A stretch of DNA of 64,000 nucleotides from assembly GCA_021740825.1 (NCBI GenBank), contig JAIOZA010000002.1:62001-126000 (forward strand), read 5' to 3'. Numbering within the stretch: the first letter of the stretch is position 1; every line of letters starts with the position of its first letter. Shown piece by piece: positions 15,144-32,794 of the stretch. Source of the DNA: Bacteroidia bacterium. GTDB taxonomy: Bacteria; Bacteroidota; Bacteroidia; B-17B0; Aurantibacillaceae. The position numbers and the translations under genes were made by a program. The notes below the pieces were generated by a model. It saw only the letters and a list, made by a program, of their open reading frames with translations, made no database searches and was not told the origin of the DNA.

Positions 15144-15596
15144 ATGCGTGAACAAATTAATAATAAAAAAATACTGGAACCTTATCGTAAAACATTGCGC
15201 AAAAATTTGACTCCGGCAGAAGCATTTTTATGGAGGTTGCTTAAAAATAGCCAACTTGAAAACCGAAAATTTAGAAGGCAATATAGTATAGGAAATTACA
15301 TTTTAGATTTTTATTGCCCTTCCGAAAAACTTGCAATTGAGCTTGATGGAGCATCTCATTTTACACCTGAAGGAATTGAATATGATACAATAAGAACTGA
15401 ATATATAAACAGTTTTAATATTAAAGTAGTGCGGTTTGAAAACAAGTTGGTGTTTGATAATACAACCTGGGTATTAGATGAAATAAAAAGTAATTTTAGG
15501 AATGCTGTGGATTGTGGGGAATTAGAACAACCACCCCGTCCTGCGGACACCCCTCCTTATCAGGAGGGGAGCGATAAGCGGGAGTGGAAAAAATAA
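15144..15596 (+). CDS. DUF559 domain-containing protein (PD-(D/E)XK / Vsr-like endonuclease fold)
   Basis: LRKNLTPAEAFLWRLLKN...KFRRQYSIGNYILDFYCPSEKLAIELDGASH...VVRFEN; C-terminal ~21 aa are translated from a GC-rich hairpin repeat. Confidence 0.9.
   Translation: MREQINNKKILEPYRKTLRKNLTPAEAFLWRLLKNSQLENRKFRRQYSIGNYILDFYCPSEKLAIELDGASHFTPEGIEYDTIRTEYINSFNIKVVRFENKLVFDNTTWVLDEIKSNFRNAVDCGELEQPPRPADTPPYQEGSDKREWKK
15531..15575 (-). repeat. GC-rich REP-like hairpin element, copy 1 (inside DUF559 3' end)
   Basis: CCCCTCC(15550-15556)/GGAGGGG(15563-15569) stem plus GTCC(15538-15541)/GGAC(15545-15548) mini-stem. Confidence 0.8.
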
Positions 15597-15694
15597 AAAG
15601 AAAAAAATAAATTAAAAAAAAATATACCAAATCAACCTCATAGGTAATTTTACAAGTTGTTATAAATTAAACACCAATTTAAATTTAATAAGCT

Positions 15695-15738
15695 GCTCCC
15701 CTGTTTTAGGGGAGCTGTCCAGAGGACTGAGGGGTTTA
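15695..15738 (+). repeat. GC-rich REP-like hairpin element, copy 2
   Basis: GCTCCCCT(15695-15702)/AGGGGAGC(15708-15715) stem, then GTCC(15717-15720)/GGAC(15724-15727), then TGAGGGGT; same architecture as copy 1 in opposite orientation. Confidence 0.8.
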
Positions 15739-15788: not shown

Positions 15789-18530
15789 TTACTCTTTTCC
15801 TAAAAAATCTGCCCAACCTTTCCATTCAAGTTTGTAAGTATGATAAGGTGTTTTTGGTATGTCCATTGAAATTTTACCATTTTCATATAAATCCCTCCAC
15901 TCTTTAGCTGTTTTTATTTTTAGTTGTCTAGCATATAATCTTGCATCTTCAAATAATTTATAAGGACGTTGATTAGTAGCAATGTTATTAGTTCCTAACC
16001 AATCAGACCAGCTAAGCCAACCTTTATTTTTATAGATTTTATCTGGATTTGTTGGAATACCATCGTTTTTTTTCTTTTTGTTTTTGCAATAAACTCTATA
16101 CTCTTTATTACTTTTTAAATTTAAAGTTCTTACAACCTCTCTAGCCTTCTCAAAATTTAATTCTTTACCATTTCTTTTTGTATTTGAACCTAAATAATCA
16201 GCCCAACTTATCCAACCATTATTTTCATAAACACGATAAGGTGTTGAAGGAATTTCAATTGGTAATTTCCCAGACCGAATAAAATCTTTATAATCTCTAG
16301 CTGTTGTGAATTTTAATTTTTTCACATAGTTATGTGCATATTCATAATCTTTAAAAGGTGGTGGATTATATTTTGAAGGTTTAACGCCAAGCCAATCATT
16401 AATACCTTTATAACCATCAAGTTTATATGTTCGCCAAGGATTAGACGGAATATCTATTAATCTATTTTGGTTTTGGCAATAAAATTTCCATTCTAACATA
16501 GATTTTAAATATAAATTTCTAACATATTCCCTTGCTTCTTCAAAAGGCATCCAACTTAACTTAGCAAGTTTATTCCATGTTTTAAGTTGTATGCTTTCAA
16601 TTAAATCATGTGCATTTATTTTTGAGGCAATATTTACATCAATATCAAATTGTATTAAGCTATCTTTTTTATTGCCAGTTTTTCCTTTACTGATATCTCT
16701 GAAATATTCAACAATACGTTCATCATTAGATGCTAATGCTCTAATGGTGCTTAGTATTTCTTTAAATTCATCACTCTCAATAATTTCATCCGTATTATTT
16801 GTTTCAGTAAATACTGGTAAAATAACATAGCCAAACTCTTTGCCTTCTTTTTTGCGCAACGCTCTACCAACTGCTTGCACAATATCAACTGTGCTTTTAC
16901 GAGAATCTGCAAACAATACACAATCAATATTTGGTACATCAATACCTTCGGTTAAACATTTGGCATTAGTAATGATTCCTTTTTCAGTATCGGCAAATTC
17001 ATCTACAATTTTACCTCTTTCCGACGTTCGCATTGCACCCGATACATGATAGGATTTTACTTTTGCAAATTTAGGATAGGCTTTACTAAAAACAGATTGA
17101 CTTTTTTCAAAGGCTTCAGCCTTTTTTATACTCGAATGAAATGTAACCGCATGATAAATGGGATAATCAGTCATGGCTTTGCGCAAGGCAATTAAAGACG
17201 CTAACGTTCTGGCTTCTGTTTCTTTATCCCACTCTTTACCTTCGGGCTTAACAAATGCATTTTGTTGTAGTAGTTTTTTTACTTCATCATTTGAAATAAA
17301 AAGTGTAATGATTTTATAATCTGATAAAATGCCAATTTCTATGGCTTCTTTAAATGACATTTGAGCAAATGTTTCGCCATAAATGGCTGAATCATTCATG
17401 CTTAAAACCGTATCCGAAGAACCTGCATACCTTCTTTCGGTTGCAGTCATAAAAATTCGTTTTTCTACTGCTAAATTTTGTTCAAATAATAAATGACTAA
17501 ACAATTTATCTTTATCGCCAACAGTTTTATGGGCTTCATCCATTATACCCAAATTAAAACTGTGCTTGGCTATTTTACAAGCCTCTGCAATAGTTTTACC
17601 AGATTGATAGGTCGTAAAAATAATTGTCTTGTTTTTTGAATTTTCTTTTAACCAATTGGCAATGAAATTTTTATCGGTAACACATGGCACTCCAATTTCG
17701 TTGGTATGAATAGCAATATCATCATTTTTACCAATACCTTCATCACTACAAACACAAAGCCAGGCAATTGTTTCGTTATTGGCAACCGATTCTCTTAAAT
17801 ATACTTCGAGTGTTTGTTTTACTAAAGATAAAGACGGAACGGCAACAATGGTACTTTTGGATTTTAATTCTCTTGTAATCCAATAACCAGTTAAACTTTT
17901 ACCAGCACCGCAAGGAAATACTAATTTTCCTCTTGAATTATTTTCTTTTAAAAAATAATGTTTAGCTTCTTTTAAAGCTTTTGTTTGGTGAGGTTTTGGT
18001 TTATACGGAATTAGTTTTTTTTCTTTACCAGAAAGTTTATTTCTTAGCCAATCAAAAAATGTTTTATCTAATTTGCGCCATTCATCCGAGGTGCAAAATC
18101 CAATATTATTTTTTCCTTGATATATTTTCGCGTAGTCATCAACGGTAGTGCAAACCAAACAATAGGTAATATTTTCTGCAATACCAGTGCTTAAAGACAC
18201 AAAGGTTGAAATTGCCCGATGAGACAATCGTTGATCTTCCTCTTGAAGATATTTACATTGAATTGCCCAAAATTTCCCTTCTATTGTTTCTGCAATTAAA
18301 TCTATGCCTTGATCGTTTGTGGGCAGATTTAATTTTTTTAGAATAGAAGGTGTGATTTCGTTTTGTAACCAAACATTTTTAAGTTTTGATTTATAAACAG
18401 GATTGTACTCTAAATAATATTTAGTTAATTCTTCAAAAGCCTTCCCTTTTTCAAGTTTGGTTTTGGTGTCTAAAACATTCTTAAAATCTTTCCAATTATT
18501 AACTTTATTAAGGTAGGACTTTAAACTCAT
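15789..18530 (-). CDS. Mrr-like nuclease / SF2 (DEAH) helicase / C-terminal INT_rpt-like repeat protein; candidate defence effector
   Basis: N-terminal GIDLIAETIEGKFWAIQCKY (D..QxK nuclease motif); FPCGAGKS Walker A, MDEAHK, TEGIDVPNID, QAVGRALR; four repeats of about 60 aa ending NDWLG/ADYLG/SDWLG/ADFLG (about 15792-16548). Confidence 0.88.
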   Translation of the reverse strand: MSLKSYLNKVNNWKDFKNVLDTKTKLEKGKAFEELTKYYLEYNPVYKSKLKNVWLQNEITPSILKKLNLPTNDQGIDLIAETIEGKFWAIQCKYLQEEDQRLSHRAISTFVSLSTGIAENITYCLVCTTVDDYAKIYQGKNNIGFCTSDEWRKLDKTFFDWLRNKLSGKEKKLIPYKPKPHQTKALKEAKHYFLKENNSRGKLVFPCGAGKSLTGYWITRELKSKSTIVAVPSLSLVKQTLEVYLRESVANNETIAWLCVCSDEGIGKNDDIAIHTNEIGVPCVTDKNFIANWLKENSKNKTIIFTTYQSGKTIAEACKIAKHSFNLGIMDEAHKTVGDKDKLFSHLLFEQNLAVEKRIFMTATERRYAGSSDTVLSMNDSAIYGETFAQMSFKEAIEIGILSDYKIITLFISNDEVKKLLQQNAFVKPEGKEWDKETEARTLASLIALRKAMTDYPIYHAVTFHSSIKKAEAFEKSQSVFSKAYPKFAKVKSYHVSGAMRTSERGKIVDEFADTEKGIITNAKCLTEGIDVPNIDCVLFADSRKSTVDIVQAVGRALRKKEGKEFGYVILPVFTETNNTDEIIESDEFKEILSTIRALASNDERIVEYFRDISKGKTGNKKDSLIQFDIDVNIASKINAHDLIESIQLKTWNKLAKLSWMPFEEAREYVRNLYLKSMLEWKFYCQNQNRLIDIPSNPWRTYKLDGYKGINDWLGVKPSKYNPPPFKDYEYAHNYVKKLKFTTARDYKDFIRSGKLPIEIPSTPYRVYENNGWISWADYLGSNTKRNGKELNFEKAREVVRTLNLKSNKEYRVYCKNKKKKNDGIPTNPDKIYKNKGWLSWSDWLGTNNIATNQRPYKLFEDARLYARQLKIKTAKEWRDLYENGKISMDIPKTPYHTYKLEWKGWADFLGKE

Positions 18531-32656: not shown

Positions 32657-32788
32657 GTGCCCCACCTAACCTCCCCGATGGAGAGGGACAGAACACTTCT
32701 CAAACAAAAATTGAAATTGAAATTGAAAAAATAAACATATATAATCGTTCCACTCCCCTCTCCAAAGGAGAGGGGTTGGGGGTGAGGC
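32657..32788. repeat. Inverted pair of GC-rich hairpin repeats between DUF58 gene and next ORF
   Basis: Copy A 32657-32691 (CCCCACCTAACCTCCCCGATGGAGAGGG) inverted relative to copy B with perfect 9-bp stem CCCCTCTCC(32755-32763)/GGAGAGGGG(32767-32775). Confidence 0.75.
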
Positions 32789-32794
32789 TACATT

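Follow-up and report, generated by a model that had tools for sequence, protein, structure and literature searches.

DUF559 nuclease genes and the hairpin repeats that bracket them look like a previously undescribed kind of mobile element

In at least a dozen bacterial phyla, inverted hairpin repeats bracket DUF559 nuclease genes, and gene and repeats therefore look like one mobile element, of a kind previously undescribed. This exceeds what the first-pass annotation had made of a single pair of hairpins in the window, by which we mean the whole 64,000-nucleotide stretch of DNA from a Bacteroidia bacterium that was analysed (contig JAIOZA010000002.1, positions 62,001 to 126,000). In our judgement the DUF559 gene and its cognate inverted hairpin half-elements probably constitute one mobile cassette, with a nuclease of the Vsr/homing type and with solo hairpin doublets as its gene-less form.

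The hairpin pair and the DUF559 gene of the window

The first-pass annotation described two hairpins in opposite orientation, with a GTCCnnnGGAC mini-stem and a GGGGT motif. Direct inspection of the sequence confirmed the pair at the noted positions, with its sequences, its coordinates and both motifs. The features are as follows.

15144 to 15596, + strand: DUF559 (PF04480) nuclease gene, 150 amino acids (Pfam 2.5e-29; domain at about 15183 to 15494)
15527 to 15575, - strand: copy 1 half-element, sequence ATCGCTCCCCTCCTgataAGGAGGGGTGTCCgcaGGACGGGGTGGTTGT (R1 64 bits as a seed member; shuffle z -4.2; translated in frame)
15530 to 15537, - strand: copy 1 inner box, GGGGTGGT on the - strand and ACCACCCC on the + strand
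15538 to 15548: copy 1 mini-hairpin GTCC-tgc-GGAC, the covarying slot of the hairpin family
15550 to 15569: copy 1 main hairpin, 8-bp stem CCCCTCCT/AGGAGGGG with loop tatc; + strand CCCCTCCTtatcAGGAGGGG
15689 to 15738, + strand: copy 2 half-element (R1 36.2 bits, E 3.5e-9, outside the seed)
15695 to 15715: copy 2 main hairpin GCTCCCCT-gtttt-AGGGGAGC; whole + strand GCTCCCCTgttttAGGGGAGC
15717 to 15727: copy 2 mini-hairpin GTCC-aga-GGAC, read directly from the sequence
15731 to 15735, + strand: copy 2 box GGGGT, facing outward

The copies are arranged hairpin to hairpin with their boxes (GGGGT and ACCACCCC) at the outer edges; their main stem sequences differ and the GTCC/GGAC mini-stem is common to both. 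Copy 1 is convergent in orientation, its inner box GGGGTGGT being directed at the DUF559 gene. The pair had been said to straddle the stop codon of that gene, and its two members do lie on either side of the stop (15594-15596), but copy 1 does not itself cross it: this copy is contained entirely within the open reading frame, where it codes for part of the C-terminal tail, and copy 2 is located downstream.

Both hairpins are members of one repeat family. The covariance model R1, built from a 28-sequence alignment of half-elements mostly from other species, scores copy 1 at 64 bits with copy 1 itself as one of the 28 seed sequences, and recovers copy 2, which is not among the seed, at 36 bits (E 3.5e-9). 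All other R1 matches in the window are weak, and a third one at 32749-32789 (+ strand) reaches 19 bits (E 0.001). On the + strand, none of 200 shuffles folds as well as copy 1 (z -4.2). The fold of copy 2 stands out less, with two to four of 200 shuffles equalling it (z -2.6). A terminator reading was rejected, neither site being terminator-like, as was an Rfam identity, no known Rfam family having matched either copy.

Strict pattern searches of the window's own genome found no copies beyond the known pair, and pattern and R1 searches together leave essentially two clear copies of the element in that genome, both at its sole DUF559 gene (genome search). The downstream end of the window cassette is a doublet (copies 1 and 2), like those at loci L044 and L050, and the flank search recognised no upstream (left) end. 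The window copy is best explained as a remnant or variant whose right end is a hairpin doublet and whose left end is missing or decayed. About 50 bp from copy 2 ends a large restriction-like open reading frame (15789-18530, - strand) with Mrr_cat_2 and ResIII helicase domains and a PADLOC REase_MTase_IIG match (2.6e-95) across its N-terminal part; DUF559 cassettes of other genomes are likewise often in or beside restriction genes.

Compared with the PDB, a profile built from 37 DUF559 domains matched NGO0050 of N. gonorrhoeae (3hrl) at E 4e-28 and, at E 0.007, I-Bth0305I (3r3p), which is a homing endonuclease. The AlphaFold2 model of the window protein (pLDDT 82) returned the same two structures as its top two in Foldseek, with a target-normalised TM-score of 0.76 to I-Bth0305I and with Vsr lower in the list. 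By profile and by Foldseek, the predicted core is a Vsr/EDxHD-like PD-(D/E)XK nuclease fold; the C-terminal tail, coded in part by copy 1, is predicted to be disordered in the model. Residues E26, D55, E66, D68, H72 and D81 are invariant across the 37 sequences, and E26, D55, H72 and D81 are what we take to be the EDxHD catalytic residues; the invariant residues are consistent with an active site of the Vsr/EDxHD type. Phyla are intermixed in the DUF559 tree, which has few columns and is resolved only in part. There the window copy falls in a group, with support of 91, whose other members are a Nitrospirota copy and one that is unclassified.

The hairpin family and its association with DUF559

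The family was assembled from DUF559 relatives fetched from GTDB genomes, whose genes are adjoined by related half-elements. A half-element is C-rich and comprises a main hairpin, an optional covarying mini-hairpin and a conserved inner box GGGGTGGT, the consensus being AGCTCCCCTCCTT-nnn-AAGGAGGGG-TG-(mini-hairpin)-CGGGGTGGTT. An insert of at least 10 nt stands ahead of the box in 58 of 127 half-elements, the other 69 having a short link of a few nucleotides. In 51 of the 58 the insert pairs into a mini-stem 4 bp or longer, and 23 distinct arm sequences occur among these. Pairing in the two stems reaches 96% across the 28-sequence alignment and falls to 44-66% when the partner is slid, and stem covariation is 0.203 versus 0.092 in shuffles, a level reached by none of 500. 

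The mini-hairpin slot is occupied differently in an orthologous region of two close relatives (G070 and G074; loci L234 and L250), where another repeat, of the CTTCGACTCCGCTCAGTG type, fills it in one of the two, as if repeats nest there. At locus L149 (G070:C83:5500-8800), hairpin doublets are arrayed in tandem over positions 822-2106, the repeat unit measuring about 170 bp.

At 78 DUF559 loci from about 12 phyla, the 250 bp ahead of the gene contain 70 hairpins in total and the 250 bp that follow the domain contain 80; each other 250-bp bin out to 3 kb holds 0-6 (about one). When the upstream flank is compared with the reverse-complemented downstream flank, the median score is 18.5 (97 loci) versus 9 for 280 control windows of the same loci, and bracketing by an inverted repeat exceeds the control 99th percentile, which served as the threshold, in 70 of the 97 loci (p 2e-30); the 27 loci below it include Neisseria and two Sphingomonas loci. 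The set included plasmid loci picked solely for their DUF559 match. Bracketed loci span several phyla, including cyanobacteria, Deinococcus and rhizobia, and have unrelated stem sequences (four Deinococcus loci and Azospirillum lipoferum are among them), with arms of 40 nt and perfect in Pseudanabaena and of about 114 nt in Sinorhizobium. The two ends of a locus are cognate: pitted against 12 foreign ends, the partner end from the same locus scored best in 46 of 96 loci, compared with an expectation of about 7.

Proximity of the element to DUF559, as first proposed for the window, is likewise upheld by the model: of the 150 R1 matches listed for 60 relatives, 36, from at least 17 genomes, are no more than 500 bp away from a DUF559 domain, against an expectation of 0.19, and 29 of these 36 direct their box at the gene. 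Half-elements at eight Pontibacter loci (L056, L061, L062, L064, L067, L069, L076 and L081) are reversed relative to the gene, with boxes outward, which makes a second stable arrangement.

The hairpin CCCCTCCT-N3-7-AGGAGGGG is present in 51 of 297 genomes of the phylum. DUF559 occurs in 47 of these 51 versus 123 of the 246 without the hairpin (odds ratio 11.8, p 5e-9), and stratification of the 297 genomes by family gives a Mantel-Haenszel odds ratio of 11.2 (p 0.003). R1 matches, the counts of which are lower bounds, were found in at least 27 of 60 relatives, and DUF559 in 24 of these 27 versus 16 of the 33 without matches. Two observations had been named beforehand as telling against a link, namely copies distributed independently of DUF559 and genomes rich in the element that lack it; for the most part, neither was borne out. 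The association within genomes and families speaks against independence, but most solo hairpins are far from DUF559, and they outnumber gene-bearing copies by far (124 hairpins and 4 DUF559 genes in G070). Hairpin genomes nearly all have DUF559, but G065, which is 97% complete, holds 8 copies with no DUF559 detected, and the same was found for three genomes with 1-3 copies.

Signs of mobility and competing explanations

Type IIG enzymes are interrupted in frame by the full unit, in the order LKNAYY-(hairpin, DUF559, hairpin)-LQTLPNIDINIK, and the joined flanks match uninterrupted orthologues at 94, 89 and 67% identity (an example reads LKNAYYKNNTELETLPNIDINIK). Uninterrupted forms exist for type ISP enzymes as well, and HsdS and HsdM-like reading frames also carry in-frame cassette interruptions. 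The hpa operon of Deinococcus has cassettes 70-79% identical at three different junctions in three species; that of NW-56 lies between an oxidoreductase gene and hpaE, genes that overlap in D. proteolyticus. Solo doublets (G070, G222) have the polarity of gene-bearing ends; where the gene would be, they have a spacer some tens of bp long. Doublets and arrays of short palindromes occur in G070 and G222, and the window's own genome holds the pair only. The inserts end in palindromes (AGCT, AATT) or in an inverted pair (AGTT/AACT). No direct repeat of the target-site duplication type was seen at insert ends or in the G070/G074 comparison, where none is readable because the orthologous intergenic regions are scrambled by other repeats; these sites show turnover and no clean empty site.

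Several single loci may be recorded here. L008 and L009 have identical DUF559 domains and apparently the same interrupted Type IIG region; they come from metagenome bins named Chitinophaga pinensis and Chryseobacterium gleum, so that either recent transfer or bin contamination is indicated. In Deinococcus psychrotolerans (L260) a bracketed DUF559 gene lies between paaD and paaZ, an insertion into a core operon. In a Sphingomonas (L267) a DUF559 gene lies between NAD(P) transhydrogenase genes, likewise an insertion into a core operon, with no bracketing repeat found.

From these observations we infer, in keeping with the original proposal, that DUF559 acts on the element or spreads it, and that it is the catalyst of movement. 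The nuclease would recognise the hairpin ends, possibly in single-stranded or cruciform form, and would cut beside them or at the target. The cut unit, or its gene-less doublet, might then be copied through repair or replication, and the cassette would insert between operon genes and, in large enzymes, in frame within loops that tolerate it. The best explanation of the solo doublets is that they are the gene-less form of the cassette, either non-autonomous derivatives or empty sites.

The main rival to the mobile-cassette reading is homing into repeats, in which the doublets would be an independent family and a free-standing DUF559 homing endonuclease, cutting between the halves, would be copied in by repair; solo doublets would therefore be empty target sites and not deletion products. 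The resemblance of the fold to I-Bth0305I agrees with homing, as do the polarity that solo doublets share with the ends of the gene-bearing form and the large excess of solos, for which G070 is an example. Pure homing into a pre-existing repeat, however, does not predict that the hairpins should be almost restricted to DUF559 genomes, and it is also at odds with ends that are cognate per locus, with stems that differ between phyla, and with hairpins carried along on insertion into enzyme genes. We consider homing of this kind unlikely. It is very unlikely, in our view, that the hairpins instead serve the gene or its host (in RNA stability, regulation, insulation or as defence cut sites) in an association that is not mobile. 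Copies do sit at gene ends, and DUF559 lies beside or inside restriction genes at many loci and next to one in the window, but within a single operon the cassette, ends included, is found at different junctions, and relatives lack it, solo copies are scattered far from DUF559, and the window copies lack terminator character.

The parallel with REPIN/RAYT systems drawn in the first-pass annotation is apt as a description of organisation, but HUH transposases do not account for the element. Were these ordinary REP/REPIN elements moved by RAYT/IS200-type HUH transposases, with DUF559 merely a frequent neighbour, the REPIN-like inverted doublets and arrays would be expected, and the RAYT/IS200 transposase family Y1_Tnp is indeed common in the phylum (209 of 297 genomes). 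A search of the window's genome, however, found no Y1_Tnp (PF01797), the GTAG tag is absent, and within families the hairpin follows DUF559 and not Y1_Tnp, for which the same stratified test gives an odds ratio of 1.7 (p 0.51). RAYT/Y1_Tnp was rejected as the mover on this family-stratified co-occurrence, and we find such an origin scarcely credible.

Relation to known elements and biological meaning

Known relatives in organisation are REPtrons, in which REP/REPIN sequences accompany RAYT (TnpA-REP) tyrosine HUH transposases, and the TIR-flanked TIRtrons (PMC3733652). REP/REPIN-RAYT systems and the DUF559 cassette have in common short hairpin repeats in inverted doublets and arrays, one small nuclease gene flanked by repeat copies, scattered solo copies and occasional insertion within genes. 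They differ in that the cassette nuclease is Vsr-like PD-(D/E)XK and not Y1/HUH, in that the hairpins carry neither a GTAG nor a CGTC terminal tag (alignment consensus AGCTCCCCTCCTT..AAGGAGGGGTG..CGGGGTGGTT compared with the definitions in PMC3733652), in the conserved GGGGTGGT box and covarying mini-hairpin, and in having neither a linked Y1/HUH transposase nor within-family tracking of Y1_Tnp. In its working the cassette resembles a REPtron, but two of the features that define one are lacking, namely an HUH transposase and a GTAG/CGTC tag.

EDxHD/Vsr homing endonucleases (I-Bth0305I, PDB 3r3p) share the fold by profile (E 0.007) and by structure (TM-score 0.76), and a selfish spread like theirs is plausible for DUF559. 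Unlike them, DUF559 lies outside an intron or intein (no intron family matched at the window locus), is bracketed by its own hairpins and is inserted as a cassette at many unrelated sites. CGTC-tagged REPs (including RPE-4/RPE-6 and dRS3), which have no dedicated transposase according to a 2013 survey (PMC3733652), are similar in being palindromic, in having no known enzyme, and in occurring across several phyla, Bacteroidetes among them, and sometimes within genes; their consensus of CGTC tag, AT-starting stem and CCA tail sets them apart, and as to a link with DUF559, the single Neisseria locus examined had no bracketing repeat. Rickettsia palindromic elements, too, are translated in frame within protein genes, just as the present repeats are within DUF559 itself and restriction enzymes, but the DUF559 insertion is able to carry an entire nuclease domain. 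Inverted ends common to long and short forms recall MITEs and their parent insertion sequences, from which the cassette differs in having no DDE transposase and no visible target-site duplication. In the open-access literature covered by our search, no title of a paper mentioning DUF559, and none of the abstracts inspected, concerned repeats or mobile elements.

Interspersed palindromes without a known enzyme are common in bacterial genomes, and the very common DUF559 nuclease family has no assigned function; with the two linked, each gains a testable role. If DUF559 is the mover, the elements would be a new class and a nuclease superfamily would be added to those that move short repeats. More tentatively, and with somewhat less than even confidence, we suggest that DUF559 proteins may be the mobilising enzymes of a separate class of transposable elements, defined by hairpin ends and a sole protein of Vsr/homing-type PD-(D/E)XK fold, that is spread over a dozen or more phyla and is the source of a large share of the C-rich interspersed palindromes without a known transposase. 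Mobility would account for DUF559 domains inside restriction enzymes and metabolic operons, and the compact pair of about 120 residues and a hairpin of about 50 bases is suited to assays of hairpin-guided DNA cutting and integration.
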